Below, in pieces: positions 4,328 to 18,257 of a stretch of DNA of 30,908 bases (position 1 is its first letter; every line of letters starts with the position of its first letter). Origin of the DNA: a virus; IMG/VR virus record IMGVR_UViG_3300043427_001768, positions 1-30,908 of that record; one strand, 5' to 3'. A program made the position numbers and the translations under genes. The notes below the pieces were generated by a model. The model had not been told where the DNA came from, did no database searches, and was given only the letters and a program-made list of their open reading frames with translations.

Positions 4328-5266
4328 ATGGGAAAAAGCGCCCCTTCAGCACAAACCGTCGTCAACAAGACGGAACTTCCTCCGTTCGTTACTGAGGCGG
4401 CTCAGAAGAACCTTGCGATTGCGGATGAGCTGGCGCAGCGCCCGTACCAGCCTTACGGCGGGTCTGTGGTTGCCGGGTTTAGCCCGGAGCAGCAGCAGGC
4501 GTTCCAGATGGCGCAGCAGAACGTCGGCTCCTACCAGCCTGCGTTGACTGCGGCTATGGGCGCTGCTGCTGGCGGGGCTTACTACAATCCGCAGATGGTG
4601 ACGGCACCGAGCTTTCTCGAAGGCAACATCCAGCAGTACATGAACCCGTACCTTTCTGAGGTTGAGCAGCGCGCGACCAGCAATGCTGAACGCGCCTTGC
4701 AGCAGCAGATGAACCAGATTTCGTCTCAGGCGATCCAGTCCCGCGCTTTCGGCGGCTCTCGTCAAGGGATTGCAGAAGGGGTCGCAGCCGCAGAAGGCGC
4801 TCGCGGGATCGGTGATCTTTCCGCACAGCTCCGCGCGCAGGGCTTCCAGCAGGCGGCGGCTCTTCAGCAGGCCGATCAGGCTCGCATGATGCAGGCTGCT
4901 CTGGCTAACCAGCAGGCGGGGCTGGCGGGTGCGGGACTTGGGCTTCAAGGGGCTGGCGTTCTCAGCAATTTGGCGCAGCAGCGTCAGTCGCTTGGTCTGG
5001 CAGATGTTGGCGCAGTCGGGGCTGTGGGCGAGCAGCAACAGGCGCTTCAGCAGCGGCAGCTTGAGGAAGCCTATGCACGCTTCATCGAGCAGCGCGATTT
5101 CCCGACGCAACAGCTCAACCTTCGTCTTGCAGCTCTTGGCGCTACGCCTTATGGGCAGACGACGACGCAGACCAAAACGGGCGGCGAGTCGGGCAGCAGC
5201 TTGGCTGCTGGCCTTGGTGGCGCTGGCAGCTTCCTCGCTGGCCTCGCTGCTATTGGTTCGTTCTGA
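4328..5266 (+). CDS. Gln/Ala-rich virion protein, probable DNA ejection protein
   Basis: The 312-residue product is rich in Gln and Ala and mostly helical. It has NIQQYMNPYLSEVEQRA at about residues 98-114, a motif typical of internal virion proteins, then long Q/A helices (LRAQGFQQAAALQQADQAR; ERDFPTQQLNLRLAALGA-like region). The tail is Gly/Ala/Ser rich and hydrophobic (GLGGAGSFLAGLAAIGSF). It starts two bases after the preceding stop and its own stop overlaps the next ATG. It probably leaves the capsid with the DNA, as P22 gp7/gp16/gp20 do. The long antisense frame opposite it is a composition shadow. Confidence 0.65.
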   Translation: MGKSAPSAQTVVNKTELPPFVTEAAQKNLAIADELAQRPYQPYGGSVVAGFSPEQQQAFQMAQQNVGSYQPALTAAMGAAAGGAYYNPQMVTAPSFLEGNIQQYMNPYLSEVEQRATSNAERALQQQMNQISSQAIQSRAFGGSRQGIAEGVAAAEGARGIGDLSAQLRAQGFQQAAALQQADQARMMQAALANQQAGLAGAGLGLQGAGVLSNLAQQRQSLGLADVGAVGAVGEQQQALQQRQLEEAYARFIEQRDFPTQQLNLRLAALGATPYGQTTTQTKTGGESGSSLAAGLGGAGSFLAGLAAIGSF

Positions 5267-5952
5267 TGGACACGGCGCTCCTGTTCTCGGGCGGCAAGGA
5301 TAGCCTTGCCTGCCTGTACCTTTACCGAGATGTCTGGGACCGTCTCCCCGTCATCTGGGTGAACACGGGCGCTGTTTATCCTGAGATGATCGAGTACATG
5401 GAGGGCTGGAAGAAGCGCCTTCCGAACTTCATTGAAGTGAAGACCGATCAGCCGTCGAATGTCGCGCATCATGGCTGGCCGGTTGATGTTCTGCCTGTCC
5501 AGAACTCCAGCCTTGGACGGGCGCTCTACGGCAGCAATCTTCCGTTGATGCAGTCCTATCTGAACTGCTGCGCTGAGAACATCTGGTTCCCGCTGCATCG
5601 GGCTATTCTGGCGGCTGGCGCGACGAAGGCGATCAAGGGGCAGAGAAAGTCCGACGATCACAAATCGACCGCCACGGATGGCACGACGATCTACGGCGTC
5701 ACCTACCTGATGCCGATCTACGATTGGACGACGCAGCGCGTGTTTTCGTATCTGAACGAGGTCGGTGCGAAGCTGGCCCCTGGCTATGCCGCAGGCGAGA
5801 AGACGGGCCGGGATTGCTGGGATTGCACGGCGTATCTGTCCGACAATCGGAAGCGGATCGAGAACCTGCCTGAAGATAAGAAATTGGAGATTAAGCGGCG
5901 TCTTGGTATTATAGATCAGGCCGTGCGCACGCAGTGGAGTCCGTCAACATGA
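5266..5952 (+). CDS. PP-loop ATPase / APS reductase-like enzyme with Fe-S cysteine pattern
   Basis: This 228-residue adenine nucleotide alpha-hydrolase carries the PP-loop SGGKDS at residues 8-13, WVNTGAVYPE after strand 2 and KGQRKSDDHKS at 124-134. It has adjacent cysteines at 101-102 and CWDC at 184-187. A CC-(about 80)-CxxC pattern is the [4Fe-4S] ligand set of assimilatory APS reductases. The C-terminal catalytic cysteine tail of CysH enzymes is not visible, so reductase activity is doubtful and a thio-transfer role is possible. It lies between two virion genes with ATGA-type overlaps on both sides. Similar genes occur at this place in Bcep22-like podoviruses (from memory). Confidence 0.8.
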   Translation: MDTALLFSGGKDSLACLYLYRDVWDRLPVIWVNTGAVYPEMIEYMEGWKKRLPNFIEVKTDQPSNVAHHGWPVDVLPVQNSSLGRALYGSNLPLMQSYLNCCAENIWFPLHRAILAAGATKAIKGQRKSDDHKSTATDGTTIYGVTYLMPIYDWTTQRVFSYLNEVGAKLAPGYAAGEKTGRDCWDCTAYLSDNRKRIENLPEDKKLEIKRRLGIIDQAVRTQWSPST

Positions 5953-8818: not shown

Positions 8819-11097
8819 CCACGCTTAACATCGAAGGCCGCCGTGTAAAGGTGGATGACGCCTTTCTCTCGATGTCGCCAGAAGAGCAGACGCGCGTCGT
8901 GTCTGAGATCGCTCGCTCTCTGAATTTGCAGCCGTCAGCTCCTGCTGCGGCGCAGGCTCCCGCTGCTGAATTTGTTCCGCCACCTCCCGGTATGGGCGAG
9001 TTTATGCCGCTTGCGACGACGCAGGCAGAAGCCGGTCAGATCCGTTCTGCGCAGCAGGAGGCTTTGAAAGGTGTGGCTTCTGGCGTAGGTCAGATCGCTA
9101 CAGGGACCGCAGAGCTTGTCCCAGGTCAGCTTGGTCAGCGCGCTGCTGAAGCAACGCAATACCTGAAAGAAGTCGGCTCGCCTGAAGGCCAGATGATAGG
9201 CCGTGCGGGTGCCAGCATCGCCCCCTTCGCTGCTGGCGCTCGCGCAGTTGGCGGCATCGGGCAGGCGATTACCGCCATACCTGGCGTTGCAAATGTCGCT
9301 GGCCGTCTTCCTGCTTTCGTGCAGGGCGCTGGCCGCATTCTTGGTGGCGCTACATCTGGCGCTGCTGGCGGCGCTGCTGTAGGCGCGACAGCCCCGACTG
9401 GAATAGTTTCGGAGCCGGAACGATTTGCTGCGAAGCGCGGCGAGGCTGGCAAAGAGGCTGCTATCGGCGGCGCTATCGGCGGCGGCTTCGGGCTTCTCGG
9501 AGAAGGCGTCCGCGCTGCTCGCGGGACTATGCTTCCTGAGATTGTAGGCGCGCGTGTTGAAGGCGTTGGCGGTCAGCAGTTCGATGATGCAGCCCGACTT
9601 ATCTCTGACGCCAAGAGCAGGTTTGGCATCGACATCACGCCCGCAGAAGCGCTTCAGGCTGTTACAGGCGGTCGCACTGGAATGGGAAATCTTCAGGGAT
9701 ACCTTGAGCAATCTCGTGGCGGCGCGCAAGCGTTCGCGCAAAGGATGGGAGATAGGCCTGAGCAAGTAGCTACGGCTGTGCAAAGACAATTAGACGAGAT
9801 AGCTCCGGCCTTGCGCAATCCTTCGCTTCTGGAGTTTGAAGCTCGCAAGATAGCAGATCAATACAAGCAACAAATTGATAGAATGCGAACGCAGGCCACT
9901 CAGCAGTTCTATCAGCCTGCTAGGGGAAAAGAAGTTAATCCAAACGCGGTTGGAGCTGTCGTTAAAGAAATTCGGTCTCTAGCTGCGGAAGATAAATCAG
10001 GTAAGATTATTGCTCCAGTTCTTCAGCGACTTGAAAATCTCTTGATTGCAAAACCTGCGCAGCCAGCAGTCGGACCTGGCCCGCGCGAGGTGCCGACTGG
10101 AATGCGCGCAATGCGCGTTTCAGAACCTCCGAAGGCGGCTGTTCCTGAAGAATATATTACAGATGTGAACACGCTTGAGATGGCTCGCCAGCTACTTAAG
10201 TACAGCGCTGATGCTCCACTGTATACCGCTGAAGGCATCTCTAAGGTGCAGAGCAAGAAGCTTCTGGATGGGCTTAAGTCCCTAGGAGATATGCTTGAGA
10301 GAAATGTCCCTCAATTAAAGCAAGGTAGGGCTGAATACGAGAAATTTTCCCGCCGATTGGACAAACAAAATTTAACGGTAACTGGTCAGTTTGCTGACGC
10401 TCCCACCTTGCGACAACAGCAACAAGTTTTGTTTCCATCTGGAGAGCGGCTGGTTCCTGGGCAAGAAGGCGAAATTGAGCGTGCCTTTAGATCAATAGCT
10501 ACAAGGCAGGAGCGTTTACGGCCAGAGCAGATGCCGCTTCCTGATTTTGAAGCGCCACGCGCCGCTGCCCCTCAGATCGCGCGCCAGCTTCTGCGGCAAG
10601 AGCTTGCAGGCACATCAGCACGCACTGCTGAAGCCCTTACCTCCCGTGGTCTTCCGAACCAATATGCAGGCGCTGCATTCCAAGCAGCTCTACAAAGAAA
10701 CCCGCAGCAGTACGCCAACCTTCAAGCTGCATTTAGGGGAGCTGGCGTTCCGTTTGAGCCAACATCTCGCTTGCTCGAAGTGCTGCAAGCTACCGGATAT
10801 CGTCAGGGGGCAGGTTCACAAACAGAACCGTTTAGACAGTTCAACGAACTTATCGGATCTGGCGGGTTGAGCGGCGCAGTGCGAGGAATAGCTTCTCCGT
10901 CTACAACAACTCGACAGGCTTTGACCCAAGGCGCTATCGAAACGAGGACAGCCGAACTGAGCCGCATCCTTCTCAGCGGCGAAGAAGGGCTGCGCACGAT
11001 CCAGCGTCTTGCTCGCCGAAACGACACGGACGGCGAGATAGCGCGCAATCTTCTGAGCCTCAGAGATGTGACCGCTGGAGGGCTGTTAAGCCAATAA
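8815..11097 (+). CDS. Large internal virion / DNA ejection protein
   Basis: The start overlaps the preceding stop (ATGA). The 760-residue product opens MTTLNIEGRRVKVDDAFLSM and SPEEQTRVVSEIARSL, an N-terminal signature common to large internal virion proteins. Residues about 85-235 are Gly/Ala rich and hydrophobic (GRAGASIAPFAAGARAVGG, GGATSGAAGGAAVGA) and could cross membranes during ejection. The rest is helical with coiled-coil potential. It ends the virion operon and its last 12 bp overlap, tail to tail, the integrase gene on the other strand. Confidence 0.65.
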   Translation: MTTLNIEGRRVKVDDAFLSMSPEEQTRVVSEIARSLNLQPSAPAAAQAPAAEFVPPPPGMGEFMPLATTQAEAGQIRSAQQEALKGVASGVGQIATGTAELVPGQLGQRAAEATQYLKEVGSPEGQMIGRAGASIAPFAAGARAVGGIGQAITAIPGVANVAGRLPAFVQGAGRILGGATSGAAGGAAVGATAPTGIVSEPERFAAKRGEAGKEAAIGGAIGGGFGLLGEGVRAARGTMLPEIVGARVEGVGGQQFDDAARLISDAKSRFGIDITPAEALQAVTGGRTGMGNLQGYLEQSRGGAQAFAQRMGDRPEQVATAVQRQLDEIAPALRNPSLLEFEARKIADQYKQQIDRMRTQATQQFYQPARGKEVNPNAVGAVVKEIRSLAAEDKSGKIIAPVLQRLENLLIAKPAQPAVGPGPREVPTGMRAMRVSEPPKAAVPEEYITDVNTLEMARQLLKYSADAPLYTAEGISKVQSKKLLDGLKSLGDMLERNVPQLKQGRAEYEKFSRRLDKQNLTVTGQFADAPTLRQQQQVLFPSGERLVPGQEGEIERAFRSIATRQERLRPEQMPLPDFEAPRAAAPQIARQLLRQELAGTSARTAEALTSRGLPNQYAGAAFQAALQRNPQQYANLQAAFRGAGVPFEPTSRLLEVLQATGYRQGAGSQTEPFRQFNELIGSGGLSGAVRGIASPSTTTRQALTQGAIETRTAELSRILLSGEEGLRTIQRLARRNDTDGEIARNLLSLRDVTAGGLLSQ

Positions 11098-11976
11098 CCC
11101 TTCCATCGCCTCCGCCAGCTCCGCGTCGTCTGCTTCAAAGACGTGGGCATAGGTCCGCAGCGTCGTGGTCACGTCGGAATGGCCGAGGCGCTGCGAGACT
11201 GCTTTCACCGGCATCTTCTTCCGCAGCAGCGTTGTTGCGTGCGCATGTCGGGCTGAGTGTAAGCAATACCCGTCACCCAGCCCGACCGCTGCCATCGCAG
11301 CACCTACGGAGCGAGAAAGGTGCGCGAGAGAGGGACGCCCGCCCTGTGCCGAGAGGAGGATGGTCTCAGACGGGCCTCGTGATATTGCACGAAGCTCCCC
11401 CAAAAGACTAGCGGGCAGAGAGACGACACGCACAGCCGACGCTGTTTTCGGTTTGGAAACACGCTCCACGCCGCCAATCCGCACAATTCCCTTGGTCACG
11501 AAAAGTTTACCTGTGGATAAGTCCACGTCTCCCCAAGTCAGCGCAGCGATCTCTCCACGGCGCAGGCCGGTCGCAATCGCGATCCTGACGGCCAGCCCTA
11601 CCAGCGGCTTGTGCTCGACGTAATCCAGAAGCGCCCGGATCTGGTCATCCGTCAGCGCCTTCCTATCCGTCTTTTCCTTGCGGGGCGGTTTGACTTTGAG
11701 CATGGGCGATGCAGGAATATCGCCCTGTTCCACGACCCAGGAGAAGAAGCCGCAGAGGATCTGGTGAGCGACCCGAACCGTGGACGCCGAACACGTCCGC
11801 AGGCGGGCAATGTACCACGACGTAATGTGTTGAGGCTTAACATCGCAGATGGGCAAGTTCCCATGCAGGCCGAGGAAGCCGCAGCAAAAATCCCTGTAGT
11901 TTCTGGCCGTTGTCTCTGAGATCAGGCCGAGCCCGCGACGTTCCTCGATCCAGTCCGCAAATCGCTCCTGCAACAT
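11086..11976 (-). CDS. int: Tyrosine recombinase (integrase)
   Basis: The 296-residue enzyme has an N-terminal SAM-like core-binding domain (about residues 1-85) and a catalytic domain with all expected residues: R139 in ATGLRRGEIAAL, a lysine in SKPKTAS (about 177), H240 and R243 in HSARHAHATTLL, H266 in LGHSDVTTTL and nucleophile Y276 in RTYAHVF. It integrates and excises the phage chromosome. It has no extra N-terminal arm-binding domain, and no excisionase was recognised. It converges with the virion operon and diverges from the early operon. attP was not identified. Confidence 0.95.
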   Translation of the reverse strand: MLQERFADWIEERRGLGLISETTARNYRDFCCGFLGLHGNLPICDVKPQHITSWYIARLRTCSASTVRVAHQILCGFFSWVVEQGDIPASPMLKVKPPRKEKTDRKALTDDQIRALLDYVEHKPLVGLAVRIAIATGLRRGEIAALTWGDVDLSTGKLFVTKGIVRIGGVERVSKPKTASAVRVVSLPASLLGELRAISRGPSETILLSAQGGRPSLAHLSRSVGAAMAAVGLGDGYCLHSARHAHATTLLRKKMPVKAVSQRLGHSDVTTTLRTYAHVFEADDAELAEAMEGLLA

Positions 11977-12076: not shown

Positions 12077-12274
12077 ATGACGGAAAAATACGAAGTTGAT
12101 GGAGTGAGACTCCACGATCTGCTGGCCGAAGCGTCTTTCGTCATCGGCTCCCTGGGAGGCCAGCCAAACGTCCCGCTGACAGACGCTGCACGACATGAAA
12201 TGGTTTTGATCGCAGCGCGCTTGCGCAAGGCGCGGGATGCAGTGATCGCAGATCAGAAGCAGGTGCAATCATGA
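12077..12274 (+). CDS. Small early protein, unknown function
   Basis: This is the first gene of the early operon, with a strong ribosome binding site. The 65-residue product (MTEKYEVDGVRLHDLLAEAS...) is helical and charged, with an acidic N-terminus and basic central helix (ARLRKARDAVIADQ). No motif is recognised. Its stop overlaps the next ATG (ATGA). First early genes of phages are often host-takeover factors, but nothing here shows that. Confidence 0.6.
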   Translation: MTEKYEVDGVRLHDLLAEASFVIGSLGGQPNVPLTDAARHEMVLIAARLRKARDAVIADQKQVQS

Positions 12275-12462
12275 CGTACATGACACACGAAGATGTGATG
12301 CAGCACATGACGAAGATTGTTCTTCCAGCCTTCACGCGCTGGCAGGCTATCGAGCTGCTGCTTGCTGCTGGGTATTCATTGGAAGAAGTAGCCACGTTCG
12401 TTGACGAAGCCATGCGTCGTGCATGGCGCATGATGAGGAAGAGGAGCTATAGAAATGGGTAA
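12271..12462 (+). CDS. Small early protein, unknown function
   Basis: The 63-residue helical product is coupled to the previous gene by ATGA and overlaps the next gene by 8 bp. It contains RWQAIELLLAAGYSLEEVAT and ends with a strongly basic segment (RRAWRMMRKRSYRNG). The central AIELLLAAGYSLEEVATFV could be a small helix-turn-helix-like unit, but it is too short to assign. Confidence 0.55.
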   Translation: MTYMTHEDVMQHMTKIVLPAFTRWQAIELLLAAGYSLEEVATFVDEAMRRAWRMMRKRSYRNG

Positions 12463-12750
12463 TGTTATTATAAACGGAGTTGAGTACGCGCCTGTTAAGA
12501 AAGCAGCGGGATCTCGCGCTGTTGTCGTTGTTGATCGCGGCTGGATTTTTGCCGGAGATGTGACGCGCGCCGATGGGCGAATTTATCTTTCTAATGCGCT
12601 GCACGTTTTTAAATGGGAGTCGCTAGGCTTTAGCGGAATGATTGCAGATCCTAAAAAGGCAAAAGCAGACTTACGCAAAATCGCTGACGTTGACATTCCA
12701 GAAGGTGCTGAAGTGTTTTGCGTACCTATTCCTGATGGCTGGGGGCTCTG

Positions 12751-12751
<1 letters not shown>
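12455..12751 (+). CDS. Conserved-looking small protein (possible DUF6948-like)
   Basis: The 98-residue product begins MGNVIINGVEYAPVKKA, then AVVVVDRGWIFAGDVTRADG, NALHVFKWESLGFSGMI and a C-terminus ending PIPDGWGL. The combination of a VDRGW strand and an aromatic K/R-W-ES-G segment recalls small phage proteins assigned to DUF6948; this comparison is from memory and tentative. It immediately precedes, with a TGATG overlap, the Gly-rich repeat protein. I recall a similar pairing in other phages. Function unknown. Confidence 0.55.
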
Positions 12752-12998
<247 letters not shown>

Positions 12999-13002
<4 letters not shown>

Positions 13003-13277
13003 CCAACAATCAGCTTGTTTCAATCGTAGAACGCATTGAGAAGATCGAGGATGATCGGGCGCTGCTCGCTGCGGATGTGAAGGAGATTTACTCCGAAGCG
13101 AAAAGCAACGGGTTCGATCCGAAGATAATCAAAAAGATTATCGCCATGCGAAAGAAGGATGCCGAAGAGCGCGAACGCGAGGAGGATCTGCTTCAGAGTT
13201 ACATGGCTGCGCTCGGGATGCTCGCAGACACGCCGCTCGGAGAAGCCGCCATGGCTCGCGCCAAGGAGCAGTTCTGA
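12999..13277 (+). CDS. GapR-like nucleoid-associated protein (DUF2312)
   Basis: The 92-residue product starts MTNNQLVSIVERIEKIEDDR and continues ALLAADVKEIYSEAKSNGFD, PKIIKKIIAMRKKDAEERER, matching the GapR/DUF2312 core, in which the long N-terminal helix and the basic second helix clamp overtwisted DNA. Alphaproteobacterial GapR follows positive supercoils at replication forks. Here it is coupled by ATGA to the Gly-rich gene and by TGATG to the methyltransferase gene, inside the phage early operon. It may help phage replication or compete with host GapR. The start is fixed by the ATGA overlap; the gene could have been read with an upstream fusion frame. Confidence 0.9.
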
Positions 13278-14035
13278 TGCAATGGCTGAAGACAAAAACG
13301 CATTTTGGCCCGCACATCTGGGTCTGCCTTGAGGATCAAGGCGTGTCCCGCTCAATCCTGCACACAGGACGGTGGGAGCCTCATGTTGAGAAGCTGCTGC
13401 ACGACTACACATATAGGGACATCACGTTTCTCGATGTCGGGGCGAACGTCGGCTACTTCTCTCTTTCAGTGGCGAGCAAGCTGCGCGCTCTTGGGTCTGG
13501 TCGCGTAATCGCTGTTGAGGCTAACCCGCTCGTCACGCCCTATCTGATGGCGTCCGTCGTTGAATCCGGTCTGGACGACATCATTGATGTTCTGCCTTAT
13601 GCCGTCTCCGAAGAGAACGGTTTGGTCGAAATGCTGGCTGAATTTGGCGACAACCTTGGGGGATCTACGATCAGGAAAGTGTCGCGCCAGGATGTGAGCA
13701 AGAACGTGGTTCCGTGCGTGAAGCTGGATGACGTGCTGGATGATGTTCCGCATATCGACTTAATGAAGATGGACATAGAAGGCGCGGAGCTTTTGGCGCT
13801 TCATGGGATGAAGGCGCTGCTCATTCGGCACAAGCCTGACATCATCATGGAGATCAACAAGGATTGCCTACAAGGCGTCTCTGGCGTCTCTGTGGCGACG
13901 CTCTCCAATCACATGAAGCTGATCGGCTACGAAGCGTTCGACTTCTTTGGTGAGCTGCGGAAGGTGAGCGTCGAGGAAATCGTAGAGATCGTTGACGCCA
14001 ACAATTACTACGACTTTTTGTTCCGTCCGAAGTGA
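13277..14035 (+). CDS. FkbM family SAM-dependent methyltransferase
   Basis: The 252-residue product has the SAM-binding motif FLDVGANVGYFSLSVAS at about residues 51-67, VIAVEANPLVTPYLMASVVE (motif II), and VKLDDVLDDVPHIDLMKMDI followed by EGAELLALHGM, the typical FkbM core. FkbM enzymes O-methylate sugars or small molecules. A phage copy could modify a host surface glycan or a nucleotide-related metabolite, but the substrate cannot be read from sequence. It sits in the early operon between GapR and the DnaA-like gene, coupled to both. Confidence 0.88.
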   Translation: MQWLKTKTHFGPHIWVCLEDQGVSRSILHTGRWEPHVEKLLHDYTYRDITFLDVGANVGYFSLSVASKLRALGSGRVIAVEANPLVTPYLMASVVESGLDDIIDVLPYAVSEENGLVEMLAEFGDNLGGSTIRKVSRQDVSKNVVPCVKLDDVLDDVPHIDLMKMDIEGAELLALHGMKALLIRHKPDIIMEINKDCLQGVSGVSVATLSNHMKLIGYEAFDFFGELRKVSVEEIVEIVDANNYYDFLFRPK

Positions 14036-14043
14036 GGCGTTCG

Positions 14044-14433
14044 ATGAACCTGGAGCAGCAGATCGCACATTACAAGTCGGTTCGCAACAGGATCATGAAC
14101 GCGAAACGTGCTTCGCTGGTGATGAAGAAGGAGCCTGATCCGGAGGACGTGTACGTGGCTCCAAAGCCGCCGAAGAAGAGGAGAGAGCATAACGTCAAGG
14201 TGACGAAGGAGACGCAGGAAAGCATCGCGTACATATTGGATGCTTACGGAGTGACGTGGAACGAGGTTATCGGTCCATGCCGAAAGATTAAATACACAAT
14301 GCCAAGGCGCGCGATTTGGTGGATGCTGCGGTGCAAAGGATTAAGCACCGCGCATATAGGCACTCTGACTAATCGCGATCACACAACCATTCTCAACGGA
14401 CTGAAAAAGGTGAGCTCATGGGACCGAAACTGA
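14044..14433 (+). CDS. DnaA domain-IV-like DNA-binding protein
   Basis: The 129-residue protein has a basic, disordered N-terminus. Its C-terminal domain matches the DnaA box-binding domain: YGVTWNEVIGPCRK, MPRRAIWWMLRCKGLSTAHI, then NRDHTTILNGLKKV, where DHTT is the signature of DnaA domain IV. There is no AAA+ ATPase, so it cannot be an initiator alone; it may mark a phage origin or occupy host DnaA boxes. ATG 14044 has GAGG six bases upstream. GTG 14032, overlapping the previous stop, is the alternative start. Confidence 0.82.
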   Translation: MNLEQQIAHYKSVRNRIMNAKRASLVMKKEPDPEDVYVAPKPPKKRREHNVKVTKETQESIAYILDAYGVTWNEVIGPCRKIKYTMPRRAIWWMLRCKGLSTAHIGTLTNRDHTTILNGLKKVSSWDRN

Positions 14434-14741
14434 TTTTGAACGAAGCAAGCAATCTGATCGATGATCGTGGCGTTAACTATGGCGGCATCGAGCAGAATTT
14501 TGACCGCGCTGCGAAGATCGCCAGCCTGAAGCTGGACAAGCACATCTCGCCATACGAAGTCGCGATCATTCTTGAGAGTGTCAAAGATGCGCGCCGCGCT
14601 GTAGCGCCTGAGCATTACGACAGCCACATCGACGGGATTAATTACCGGGCATTTGCGCTGCTGCTGTCCGGCGCTCAGAGGGGCATCCCGACGACGCAGG
14701 AGATGGCCGGGATGATTAACAAGCTGAACGATGAGGCGTAA
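14418..14741 (+). CDS. Phage early protein (DUF6378-like)
   Basis: The 107-residue helical product starts MGPKLILNEASNLIDDRGVN and contains YGGIEQNFDRAAKIASLKL, SPYEVAIILESVKDARRA, and HYDSHIDGINYRAFALLL. The plan leader helix, R.(V)NYG..E.NF...A, K..R and D..IDG..Y matches small phage proteins listed as DUF6378, which look like MazG/dUTPase-type helical bundles. Metal-binding acidic residues are visible but activity is unproven. It overlaps the DnaA-like gene by 16 bp. Confidence 0.65.
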   Translation: MGPKLILNEASNLIDDRGVNYGGIEQNFDRAAKIASLKLDKHISPYEVAIILESVKDARRAVAPEHYDSHIDGINYRAFALLLSGAQRGIPTTQEMAGMINKLNDEA

Positions 14742-14742
14742 T

Positions 14743-16221
14743 ATGAGCAAGATCATTAGAACGCCACAAAAGGCAACGGGTGGCATTACTGCCGAAGAGA
14801 AGGCGCGCATGGAAGAACATGCGAAGCTTTGGATTAAACGCGCCATGCGCACAGACCCCATTGAGCCGGAGAAGATCGTCCCAGCTATTGAAGGATTGTA
14901 TGAAGCGGCTGGTTTGAAAAAGCCACGCGTGGTGATTGCACCTTCTCCTCTCGTCATGGCGTTCGCATATGGTGCGTCGGCTACAATCTGGTACTCTCGA
15001 AAGAATGTTAAAGCTGCGACCTACGCTGCGACCTACGCTGCGACCCACGCTGCGACCGACGTTGCGACCTGCGCTGCAACCCAAGCTGCGACCCACGATG
15101 CAACCGACGATGCGACCTACGCTGCCACCGACGATGCAACCGACGCTGCAACCGACGCTGCGACCCAAGCTGCGACCCACGCTGCAACCCACGCTGCGAC
15201 CCACGCTGCGACCAGAGATGCAACCGACGCTGCAACCGACGCTGCAACCCACGCTGCAACCCACGCTGCAACCTACACTGCGACCCAAGCTGCGACCAGA
15301 GATGCGACCCACGCTGCGACCAGAGATGCGACCTACGCTGCGACCTACGCTGCGACCCACGGTGCGACCGACGCTGCGACCGACGCTGCGGCCGACGCTG
15401 CGACCCACGCTGCGACCCACGCTGCAACCCACGCTGCGACCGACGTTGCGATCCGCGCTGCGATCCGCGCTGCGACCAACGATGCGACCGAAGCTGCGAC
15501 CTACGCTGCGACCGACGCTTGTTTTGAGTTGGCCGGTAATTTTGGCATTGAGTGTGCAAAATTATGGTTTAGATCATATCAAGGCGGAAATATGTGGGCG
15601 TCTTACGATTGTTATTTGACAGCGTTCCGAGACATCTTAGGTCTTGATCTGCCAGCACATGCAAAATACCGTTTTTGGGAACAAGCAGCCATTCACGGCG
15701 GGTTTCGCGTGATGCACGAAGATTTCTGCATCGTCAGTGATTTCCCGGAACGCATTCTGGTTGACGAGCAAAACCGACCGCATTGCGAAAATGGGCCATC
15801 TCATCGTTGGAGAGACGGTTGGTCACTATACCATTGGCACGGCGTAAAAGTGCCTGCGCACTGGATCGAGGATCGCGCCAACTTAGACCCAAACGAAGTC
15901 ATCAAGTGCGACAACGTCGAGCAGCGCGCGGCAGGGGCAGAGATTGTTGGCTGGCCGAAGATGCTTGATGTTCTCAAGGTCAAAGTGATTAACGACAGCG
16001 GCAACGAAGACATAGGGCAACTGATTGAACTGAAGCTGCCGGGTCTAAATAAGCCGGGTCGTTTCCTAAAGGCTCGATGCCCGAGAAACGGCATCATCGT
16101 TGAAGGCGTTCCGCACGAAAGCGACATCGACGGATTGCCGATTAACACTGCCCTGGCTGCACAGGCGTGGAGAATTGGCGACGCGCAGTCGGAATATATC
16201 CACCCCGAAAAGCGTACTTAA
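14743..16221 (+). CDS. Tetrapeptide-repeat protein with C-terminal DUF6745-like domain
   Basis: The 492-residue product has three parts. Residues 1-90 form a helical N-terminus. Residues 91-259 are about 42 tandem units of A-A-T-x, where x is mostly Tyr, His, Asp, Gln or Arg and the first Ala is sometimes Asp, Val or Gly. Residues 260-492 are globular, with GGNMWASYDCYLTAFRDI, GFRVMHEDFCIVSDFPERI, GPSHRWRDGWSLYHWHGVKV and PAHWIEDRANLD, which I recognise as DUF6745-like (from memory). No catalytic motif is evident. ATG 14743 is chosen over 14731 because it lies just after the preceding stop. Function is unknown; see findings. Confidence 0.75.
   Translation: MSKIIRTPQKATGGITAEEKARMEEHAKLWIKRAMRTDPIEPEKIVPAIEGLYEAAGLKKPRVVIAPSPLVMAFAYGASATIWYSRKNVKAATYAATYAATHAATDVATCAATQAATHDATDDATYAATDDATDAATDAATQAATHAATHAATHAATRDATDAATDAATHAATHAATYTATQAATRDATHAATRDATYAATYAATHGATDAATDAAADAATHAATHAATHAATDVAIRAAIRAATNDATEAATYAATDACFELAGNFGIECAKLWFRSYQGGNMWASYDCYLTAFRDILGLDLPAHAKYRFWEQAAIHGGFRVMHEDFCIVSDFPERILVDEQNRPHCENGPSHRWRDGWSLYHWHGVKVPAHWIEDRANLDPNEVIKCDNVEQRAAGAEIVGWPKMLDVLKVKVINDSGNEDIGQLIELKLPGLNKPGRFLKARCPRNGIIVEGVPHESDIDGLPINTALAAQAWRIGDAQSEYIHPEKRT
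15013..15519 (+). repeat. 12-bp in-frame tandem array (about 42 units)
   Basis: The consensus unit is GCTGCGACCNAC. Most variation is in the fourth codon (TAC, CAC, GAC, CAA, AGA, and rarely TGC, AAC, GAA, CGC) and in the first codon (GCT, GAT, GTT, GGT), plus a silent GCG/GCA change. Because the unit is a multiple of 3 and has no stops, several other frames are also open across it; these are shadows. Units are intermixed rather than blocked, suggesting repeated unequal exchange. Confidence 0.95.
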
Positions 16222-16235
16222 AAAGGAGAAAGCAT

Positions 16236-16583
16236 ATGGCTAAGCAGATCATCGGCGCACAAGGCGAAATCACCATCATCAAGATCGACGGCATTCCTAA
16301 TGCTCAAACGAAGAGGGCTGAGCGTAGCGCGAAGGGCTTCATCATCTCGCACAGCGAGAGCGGGCATCATCACATCCTGACCGGAGGTGACGTGCTGGAA
16401 CGGACTGATAAGGTTCCGGCAGGGATGCAAATCCTGTACGCCATTCTTGATGAACCGGCGTCACTCATTCAGGACGCGCAGGTGCCGCACGGTGGGTACG
16501 ATCTCGCCCCCGGCTTCTACGAGTTTCGCATTGCGCGCGAGTACAACCCGTTCCTCGAAGAAGCACGGCGCGTGGCTGATTGA
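16236..16583 (+). CDS. Conserved-looking small protein paired with the DUF6745-like gene
   Basis: ATG 16236 has an AAGGAGAA site six bases upstream; longer in-frame starts lie inside the preceding gene. The 115-residue product has SHSESGHHHILTGGDVLE in the middle and GYDLAPGFYEFRIAREYN at the end, followed by EEARRVAD. The APGFYE-R-REY-P-E-RRVAD ending resembles small proteins that I recall next to DUF6745-like genes in other genomes. The HHH cluster could bind metal. Function unknown, but pairing with the repeat protein suggests a two-gene unit. Confidence 0.65.
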   Translation: MAKQIIGAQGEITIIKIDGIPNAQTKRAERSAKGFIISHSESGHHHILTGGDVLERTDKVPAGMQILYAILDEPASLIQDAQVPHGGYDLAPGFYEFRIAREYNPFLEEARRVAD

Positions 16584-16602
16584 TCTACAGCGCGGGAGTG
16601 CG

Positions 16603-16621
16603 ACCCGCGCCGCCCTTGAGG
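16603..16621 (+). repeat. 19-bp direct repeat, copy 1
   Basis: ACCCGCGCCGCCCTTGAGG occurs here, between two genes, and again at 16902-16920, where it forms the end of the next gene plus the ribosome binding site of the following one. The intergenic copy looks like the leftover 3' end of a duplicated or swapped cassette. Confidence 0.85.
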
Positions 16622-16666
16622 GGAAAAGGTAAACTTTGATAGGTGTCCAACTGAGGGATGATGAAG

Positions 16667-16918
16667 ATGACCGAATGGCAACCGATTGAGACAGCGCCGA
16701 AGGATGGAAGAATTATTGAGCTGACGGCCCTTGAGGATGACGGATCAACTTTTGAAATCCACCCGATGCAGTGGGTGCACATCCAACAGAACGCGCTGTT
16801 CCCTGGCGTCACTGGCATGTGGACCGCACCGGGCGGTGAATACACTTGGAACGGAACGCCAGACAACGGCGGCCCTACGCACTGGCGCGAACTTACGCTT
16901 CACCCGCGCCGCCCTTGA
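16667..16918 (+). CDS. Small phage protein starting MTEWQPIETAPKDG
   Basis: The 83-residue product begins MTEWQPIETAPKDGRIIELT, a start shared by many small phage and prophage proteins (DUF551-like in style). It continues with IHPMQWVHIQQNALFPG and the conserved-looking TPDNGGPTHWREL. ATG 16667 is chosen for this canonical start and lies ten bases after GAGG; ATG 16658 and 16661 are alternatives in frame. Function unknown. Confidence 0.65.
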   Translation: MTEWQPIETAPKDGRIIELTALEDDGSTFEIHPMQWVHIQQNALFPGVTGMWTAPGGEYTWNGTPDNGGPTHWRELTLHPRRP

Positions 16919-16920
16919 GG
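16902..16920 (+). repeat. 19-bp direct repeat, copy 2
   Basis: Perfect second copy of the repeat at 16603-16621. It contains the last codons and TGA stop of the preceding gene and the GAGG part of the next gene's ribosome binding site. Confidence 0.85.
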
Positions 16921-16930
16921 AGAAGAAGTG

Positions 16931-17158
16931 ATGAACGGATACACGGCATATAGGCTATGGTGGTATAGAAATCAGGCGCAGCACAGTCTTTCTAATGAGA
17001 GAAGTGTCGATTTGCAGTTTGAGGATCACATCAATTCAATGCCGATGTCTGAGCTATTTTTCTTATTTGAAAGAATAGCAGATGGAGAATACGACGGCTT
17101 CCTTGCTGCCTATAAAAGAGAAACTGAACGTTTAAAAGAATTGGCAAAAGAGCCTTAG
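16931..17158 (+). CDS. Small early protein, unknown function
   Basis: ATG 16931 follows GAGGAGAAGAAG. The 75-residue product starts MNGYTAYRLWWYRNQAQHSL and ends with a charged helix (YKRETERLKELAKEP). Its base composition is more AT rich than its neighbours. It is the last gene before the structured intergenic segment and its TAG lies two bases before the first hairpin. Confidence 0.6.
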   Translation: MNGYTAYRLWWYRNQAQHSLSNERSVDLQFEDHINSMPMSELFFLFERIADGEYDGFLAAYKRETERLKELAKEP

Positions 17159-17160
17159 AG

Positions 17161-17300
17161 CTTCGCCCATGTCGGGCGAAGGATCGTGAATGTTCGCGAT
17201 CTAATTGAAACAGGTCTGGTTGGTCTTCTCCAGTCTTGTTTCGGTCTGCCCTGAACTGACTTGCCCCCTGGCGTATCGGAAACCCGTCAGGGGGCTTTTT
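17161..17300 (+). ncRNA. Candidate structured RNA: four consecutive hairpins ending in an intrinsic terminator
   Basis: Hairpin 1 is 17161-17168 paired with 17174-17181 (8 Watson-Crick pairs). Hairpin 2 starts at the next base, 17182-17189 with 17194-17201 (8 pairs including one G-U, 4-nt loop). Hairpin 3 is 17207-17219 with 17230-17242 (13 positions: 11 Watson-Crick, one G-U, one mismatch). Hairpin 4 is the terminator at 17263-17295 plus T5. About 80 of 140 nt are paired with almost no spacer. It could be a 3'-UTR small RNA, an attenuator or riboswitch-like leader for the zinc-protein gene, or a put/nut-like antitermination site. No known RNA family is recognised and no promoter is obvious. 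Confidence 0.55.
17263..17300 (+). terminator. Rho-independent terminator inside the early operon
   Basis: GCCCCCTGGCG (17263-17273) pairs with CGTCAGGGGGC (17285-17295), 11 pairs including one G-U, 11-nt loop, then TTTTT. The ribosome binding site AAGGAG of the next gene starts at 17301, directly after the T run. Confidence 0.85.
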
Positions 17301-17311
17301 AAGGAGCGATC

Positions 17312-17485
17312 ATGGATACATGCGTTAGTTGCAAGTTCACGGCTGTGAAGGATGGCGGATCTTTGCTGTGCCATCGCTTTCCGAAAGCGCAGCGTGTAGC
17401 GAGAGATTATCTCTGCGGCGAATGGCGACCTGATGTGAAAAAGGAACAGAAAAATGGAAATGATAAAAAATCTTCCGGCAAGTGA
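17312..17485 (+). CDS. Small cysteine-rich (zinc-binding type) protein, 57 aa
   Basis: AAGGAG lies six bases before the ATG. The product starts MDTCVSCKFTAVKDGGSLLC and contains C4-x2-C7, C20 and C35, a CxxC...C...C pattern of a single small zinc site, followed by a charged tail. It overlaps the nuclease gene start by 32 bp in another frame. Its first half resembles the cysteine pattern of the 18988-19296 product. Such small phage proteins are common and mostly uncharacterised. Confidence 0.65.
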   Translation: MDTCVSCKFTAVKDGGSLLCHRFPKAQRVARDYLCGEWRPDVKKEQKNGNDKKSSGK

Positions 17486-18257
17486 GTATCACGCGATCAA
17501 GGCTCTCAGCGCCTCGACGGCCAAGCAGCTTCTAAAGTCACCAGCGCATTATCTCGCCAGCCTCGCTAATCCGCGTGAACCTACTGCTGCTATGCGGCTC
17601 GGAACGCTCTGCCACACGCTCGTATTCGAGCCGCAGGAGTTTGAGAAAGAGTTCGCGATCATGCCAAAGGTGGACAAGCGCACGAAGTTCGGCAAGGAAG
17701 CCGCCGCCAGCTTCGAGGAAGCGAACGAAGGCAAGATCATTCTGGACGAGTACCAGTATGAGAAGGCTCGCGCGATTGCCGACAGCGCGCTCGATCACCC
17801 GCTCGTGCAGGAATATATGAAGGGCGGGGATGCCGAAGTCACGATGCTGTGGGAGCAGTACGGCCTGCCCTGCAAAGCGCGCGTGGACTATCTCGTGGGT
17901 GACGTCATCTTCGATCTCAAGACATGCCAGGATGCAAGCCCGGAAGGGTTTGCGCGACAGATCGGGGCGTTCCAATATCACCTGCAAGCATCTCACTACG
18001 CAGAGGGATATGAAGCGATAAACGGCAAGCCGCTGGATCGGTTTTGTTTCATCGCGGTTGAGAGCGAGCCGCCTTATGCGACCGGCGTCTATGTAATCGA
18101 CAGCGTTGGGCTGCAATCAGGGCGCGCGTTCATGGCGAAGGCGGCGAAAGCGTTCAAGCAAGCGCAGCAGCCGGAGAAAGTCAAAGCAATGTACGCAGAT
18201 CATCTGGTTGAGCTGACATTGCCGAATTGGTCCCTTGCGCAACCTTTCTCGGCATAA
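17454..18257 (+). CDS. RecE-like exonuclease (exodeoxyribonuclease VIII family, PD-(D/E)XK)
   Basis: The 267-residue product matches the C-terminal nuclease domain of RecE: SEYHAIKALSASTAKQLLKS, MRLGTLCHTLVFEPQ with H54, then GLPCKARVDYL with D145, DVIFDLKTCQDASP with D154 and K156 (the DxK core), and GAFQYHLQASHYAEGY with the conserved Q/Y pair. It should degrade one strand of double-stranded DNA to leave 3' tails for annealing. No RecT/Beta annealing partner is evident; the SSB-like protein downstream may serve. Confidence 0.88.
   Translation: MEMIKNLPASEYHAIKALSASTAKQLLKSPAHYLASLANPREPTAAMRLGTLCHTLVFEPQEFEKEFAIMPKVDKRTKFGKEAAASFEEANEGKIILDEYQYEKARAIADSALDHPLVQEYMKGGDAEVTMLWEQYGLPCKARVDYLVGDVIFDLKTCQDASPEGFARQIGAFQYHLQASHYAEGYEAINGKPLDRFCFIAVESEPPYATGVYVIDSVGLQSGRAFMAKAAKAFKQAQQPEKVKAMYADHLVELTLPNWSLAQPFSA

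Follow-up and report, generated by a model that had tools for sequence, protein, structure and literature searches.

A conserved three-hairpin RNA and terminator at the end of phage early operons: a candidate 3'-end small RNA of temperate alphaproteobacterial phages

Introduction

Regulatory RNAs described from alphaproteobacterial phages are, to our knowledge, few. The closest described RNAs are SorX and SorY, small RNAs (sRNAs) of Rhodobacter sphaeroides. SorX makes up the 3' end of an mRNA, being 3'-UTR-derived and Hfq-dependent (PMC9438474, PMC8625941, PMC6238624). In Sinorhizobium, the sRNA EcpR1 represses dnaA and gcrA (PMC4414408). Among phage RNAs, put of HK022 is a two-stem RNA located 3' of early promoters, where it makes terminators leak (PMC9378689).

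The DNA analysed here, referred to as the window, comprises the 30,908 bases of one IMG/VR record. An element between two of its genes has the order of parts seen in SorX and SorY, a hairpin, then an unpaired linker (with CCCUG..GACUUG, partly alike in the window) and a GC-rich terminator with a U tail, but it is phage-borne and has three tandem hairpins where they have one 5' hairpin; SorX is a 75-nt mature RNA with that single hairpin, whereas three precede the linker in the window. Like put, the element places two stem-loops side by side in the early transcript of a phage. However, put lies just behind early promoters, while the phage element lies at the end of a unit and contains a terminator, and the two are compared by layout, not by sequence. 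EcpR1 is likewise a structured alphaproteobacterial RNA with a terminator, and the DnaA-C- and GcrA-like genes of the phages provide a thematic link only; the window element does not contain the EcpR1 loop UCCGCCGCAUCU, and gave no Rfam match to the EcpR1 family. Ordinary intrinsic terminators share the GC stem and T run, but are not preceded by three further hairpins that are conserved and covary, nor by a conserved linker.

Layout and fold of the element

From the sequence comparisons below, we regard the segment as a real and conserved three-hairpin RNA with a transcription terminator between two phage genes. Its parts are the following.

17156-17158, + strand: TAG, the stop codon that ends the 76-aa upstream gene; the first bases of the conserved element are TAGAGCTTCG
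17161-17181, + strand: stem 1, a hairpin of 8 bp (C17161-G17181)
17182-17201, + strand: stem 2, a hairpin of 9 bp (G17182-C17201), directly abutting stem 1
17207-17242, + strand: stem 3, a hairpin of 8 bp, a U.U mismatch and 4 bp (G17207-C17242)
17243-17262, + strand: mostly unpaired linker of 20 nt, with CCCUGAACUGACUUG at 17249-17263
17263-17300, + strand: intrinsic terminator with an 11-bp stem (G17263-C17295), an 11-nt loop and T5 (17296-17300)
17301-17306, + strand: AAGGAG, the ribosome binding site for the gene that follows, immediately 3' of the T run

The original prediction had described four hairpins at these coordinates, beginning two bases after a stop codon (TAG at 17156-17158, stem 1 from 17161) and ending in T5 followed by a ribosome binding site (AAGGAG from 17301), all of which was borne out on the sequence. 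It had also spoken of almost no unpaired spacer, which holds for stems 1-3 (gaps of 0 nt between stems 1 and 2 and 5 nt between stems 2 and 3) but not for the 20 nt between stem 3 and the terminator. The T run lies 11 nt 5' of the start codon of the downstream gene (ATG at 17312).

The whole element folds at -68.3 kcal/mol, against a dinucleotide-shuffle mean of -46.2 (z -5.4; 0/200 shuffles equal). Taken singly, stems 1, 2 and 3 were each better than 300/300 shuffles and the terminator better than 299/300, and the coding DNA just 5' and just 3' of the element had no folding excess (z 0.2 and 0.5). Ranked by raw energy, the element comes only about 11th from the lowest among 1539 folding windows because GC-rich coding DNA folds too, and the argument is therefore carried by the shuffles and the relatives.

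Conservation and covariation in close relatives

The element is present in eleven close relatives on other IMG/VR contigs; the relatives are metagenome contigs, many of them incomplete. Searches with the exonuclease and with DNA patterns gave the first four (L002, L003, L004 and L010), and a second pattern together with a search for the neighbouring SLT protein added L085, L086, L087, L089, L090, L091 (in which the element is cut off at the 3' end) and L096. All match a covariance model of the first five sequences, with E values of about 1e-20 to 1e-43. In the close homologues the element begins at the upstream stop codon or adjacent to it, as TAG or TAA followed by AGAGCTTC(G/A), while the gene 5' of it varies: the window has a 76-aa gene there, L002 one of 106 aa, and the remaining relatives an SLT transglycosylase-like gene.

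Across 11 aligned sequences, every one of the 245 pair cells tested (stem 1, stem 2 and terminator) holds a standard pair. Both sides have changed in 10 of 24 pairs, and 0/500 shuffles equalled the alignment on any of five measures. This alignment was fitted to the model, which favours structure; MAFFT alone, applied to the first five sequences, yields 6 pairs with both-side change. The covariation signal was lost when partners were slid by one to three columns. Both-side changes fall on one pair of stem 1 and on 5/8 pairs of stem 2 (each 100% paired among the 11 homologues) and on four pairs of the terminator stem. Stem 3 is too variable to be aligned throughout and was assessed in subsets: three outer and two inner pairs have changed on both sides between the window and L002 (hand alignment), and three pairs have done so among six L010-type sequences, while in the L003 subtype the stem was no better than shuffles (z -0.5). 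The original prediction was of an undescribed phage RNA, to be abandoned if covariation was absent or stems 1-3 were not conserved. Compensatory changes were found in stems 1, 2 and 3 and in the terminator, the stems are conserved, and no Rfam 15 family matches the element at its gathering threshold.

On the + strand there are 37 G-U pairs and 0 A-C pairs, and the functional form is therefore an RNA read rightward. A feature acting as DNA, such as a cruciform or a recombination or packaging site, might be suggested by the exchange of gene cassettes 5' of the element, but is made very improbable by this pair bias and by the U-tract terminator. The chance that these are fortuitous hairpins in GC-rich DNA, for which the unremarkable raw energy could be cited, is practically nil: z scores of -5.4 to -6.2 and the compensatory changes across relatives rule it out, the covariation refuting it outright. 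A short open reading frame across the element (34 aa in L003, with related frames in L004 and L010) was read as non-coding because most terminator changes are non-synonymous when read in it, and in the window the frame is interrupted by a stop.

All close homologues keep the UGACUUG linker, as do most of the distant forms. Its conservation in the close set partly reflects how that set was chosen, since the first homologues were sought in part by the motif TGACTTG; the loci found through the SLT protein are free of this bias.

Genome neighbourhood

In the window, the element stands within a rightward run of genes, 5' of those for a small Cys4 protein, an exonuclease, an HTH protein, a RuvC-like protein and a helicase-primase.

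11086-11976, - strand: integrase
12077-17158, + strand, opposite to the integrase: early-type operon 5' of the element, with GapR-like, FkbM, DnaA-C, DUF6378 and DUF6745 genes
16928-17158, + strand: 76-aa upstream gene, differing from the gene 5' of the element in relatives
17312-17485, + strand: small protein of about 57 aa with four conserved cysteines (51 aa used in searches)
17454-18257, + strand: exonuclease VIII-like gene, after the Cys4 gene

GapR, GcrA and a terminase 68% identical to that of Sinorhizobium phage phiM5 lead us to infer that the hosts belong to the Alphaproteobacteria. A consensus scan found promoter-like sites at chance level only; the genes downstream in the window clade must depend on read-through or on a promoter that such a scan does not see.

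The 3' neighbour of the element is on the opposite strand in L086, L087, L107, L115, L136, L148, L152 and L166, and the downstream sequence of L086 is common to L089 and L096. This convergent gene is primase-like in L086 and L087, and tail-fibre-like in L107 and L136. A co-directional gene follows closely in L003, L004, L010, L085 and L090.

Homologues of host cell-cycle regulators (GapR, the DnaA C-terminal domain and GcrA) occur in the early operons, at 12819-13277 and 14032-14433 of the window, 4559-5053 of L136 and 4606-5109 of L166. At 14731-16221 the window encodes a 496-aa protein with a DUF6745 match that is highly repetitive at about 15013-15519; the repeat in its L002 counterpart reads like ATYDATRDAT. 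The sequence CCCGCGCCGCCCTTGAGGAGAAGAAG is repeated at small-gene junctions 5' of the element (16603-16625 and 16902-16933 in the window, 4360-4391 in L002) and looks like a site of gene-cassette exchange. A block of SLT gene plus element is common to L003 and L010 and to L086, L087, L089 and L096, with SLT proteins about 88-91% identical. The backbone of the latter four differs from that of the window-like phages (a convergent primase-like gene), and the block's presence across different backbones suggests module exchange.

Comparison with SorX and SorY

When nine loci (59 kb) were compared with all 4227 Rfam families, three matches had E<=1; all were to SorX or SorY and all fell on the element. 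The best SorX match (RF02784) was in L107, at 30.3 bits (E 4e-6) against a gathering cut-off of 46.6, and SorY (RF02651) matched L086 at 32.1 bits (E 3e-5) against a cut-off of 111 bits; both E values come from shorter stretches, which also gave weaker matches to other sRNA families. The matches in relatives lie in the linker and terminator, and the tail of some of them, CCCUG-N-GACUUG followed by the terminator, resembles that of SorX and SorY. The window element itself matches neither model and is therefore not filed as a member. Its linker, CCCUGAACUGACUUG, is partly like that of SorX (CCUCCCUGUUGGAC.U), the host copies reading CCUCCCUGUUGGACUUG. In the closest cases among SorX homologues in the sampled bacterial genomes, CCUCCCUGUUGGACUUGCCCGG precedes the terminator, where the window has CCCUGAACUGACUUGCCCC. 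It is tempting, though distinctly doubtful, to suppose that unrelated alphaproteobacterial phages share a new family of 3'-end RNAs (with SLT, DnaA-C and GcrA genes) carrying the terminator-proximal module of SorX/SorY, which might act as a mimic or competitor in the sRNA network of the host while infection proceeds.

Distant forms and extent of the family

In phages gathered by SLT similarity, the corresponding position behind a DnaA-C or GcrA gene is occupied by forms whose stems are very different. These more distant forms end phage operons carrying SLT, DnaA-C or GcrA genes. Five compensatory pairs occur in stems 1-2 of the distant set L107, L115, L130, L131, L188 and L176. In a search that used neither motif nor model, TGACTTGCCCC preceded 6/10 strict terminators 3' of an SLT gene. 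Against the model, the distant forms have E values from 1e-6 to 0.3, and L143 and L166 are without the exact motif. These forms are likely true homologues of the window element.

A general phage class defined by TGACTTG before a terminator was considered and rejected. There were 69 such viral stretches, but also 3/398 bacterial genomes, a comparable rate by a rough estimate of the size of the viral collection, and most of the 69 are therefore not counted as members; TGACTTG plus a terminator is not in itself specific to phages. Pattern matches in genome contigs were put down to chance, none being supported by the model. The model search of bacterial genomes matched 5/398 Pseudomonadota at E<=0.01, about chance level, and 0/372 genomes in the order of one SorX-positive genome carried a match. 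No homologue was found in the named phages or plasmids searched.

Possible functions

The comparisons establish a conserved RNA structure, its strand, its place behind the last gene of a run and its terminator. We hold, with confidence about evenly divided, that the element is the conserved 3' end of the rightward early transcript in temperate alphaproteobacterial phages and is probably released as a small RNA. Of the three options raised in the original prediction, a 3'-UTR small RNA fits best. Like 3'-UTR-derived sRNAs, the element follows a coding gene immediately and has an intrinsic terminator at its end. Since SorX arises by cleavage from a 3' UTR and depends on Hfq, such an origin is by analogy the leading mechanism. 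The early rightward transcript would end as a chain of hairpins, a short unpaired linker and the intrinsic terminator. The RNA might be released by RNase E cleavage, or be kept where decay is stopped by the hairpins, with Hfq presumably on the U tail, and it could then act in trans through the linker, like host 3'-UTR-derived sRNAs such as SorX. In the window clade the terminator would also separate early cargo genes from the exonuclease and replication genes. The same layout is found after different upstream genes, mid-operon or facing a convergent gene, which we count in favour of the sRNA.

A serious rival, although we judge it somewhat unlikely, is that the element does no more than end the operon, as a strong terminator whose hairpins shield the 3' end of the mRNA or insulate neighbouring units, with no effect in trans. 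It lies directly behind the last gene with its terminator, often between convergent genes, and stem and loop sequences drift freely without loss of pairing; such fast variation fits a structural role as well as it fits an sRNA. The phage scan gave no target signal, the window loops and linker pairing with phage translation starts no better than shuffles. However, a single hairpin suffices for a terminator, and a structural role does not predict that UGACUUG, which resembles the linker of the host sRNAs, should be the most conserved unpaired part in distant forms. Less likely again, and in our view improbable, is a regulated attenuator or put-like element, kinds of role that the original prediction had also offered, here setting read-through into the exonuclease and replication genes. 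The 11 nt between the window T run and the start codon leave no room for a promoter, promoter-like sites being at chance level, stems 1 and 2 abut in a way that recalls the two stems of HK022 put (PMC9378689), and five relatives have a co-directional gene close behind. As a general role this fits poorly: a co-directional downstream gene is present in the window, but in many relatives the gene that follows is on the opposite strand, and there is therefore none to switch. The element ends its unit, whereas put, 3' of early promoters, makes terminators leak; placement after early promoters and before overridden terminators was not seen. Nor, judged by the one alternative pairing proposed, was a conserved pairing that breaks the terminator. 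The switch that had been proposed between CCCTGA (17249-17254) and TCAGGG of the terminator stem (17287-17292) has a pairing probability of 3e-6, costs about 8 kcal/mol and is absent in most relatives, and we dropped it; CCCTGA more plausibly belongs to the linker 5' of the terminator, which is mostly unpaired.

The favoured small RNA and its main rival differ in what they would mean. The element has a conserved structure, no Rfam family matches it at threshold, and it stands at the close of early operons in several types of phage, which also carry GapR, DnaA C-terminal domain and GcrA homologues of host cell-cycle regulators. If it is a true sRNA with a host-like 3' module, it would offer a direct handle on the way these phages communicate with the post-transcriptional control of the host. 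If it is an end-of-operon structure only, it would still be a new RNA family with clear covariation for the libraries.

Further observations

Within the structural module of the window, a PAPS reductase-like gene lies at 5266-5952. In phage MW202496 (L053:20929-21050), there is a weak model match (E 0.003) with the motif UUUGACUUGCCCC and a terminator; the annotated genes lie on the other strand. At L195 5122-5275, L183 4099-4252 (- strand) and similar loci, an intergenic stretch of about 250 nt has hairpins 5' of a TGACTTG terminator and is possibly another structured RNA of other phages.
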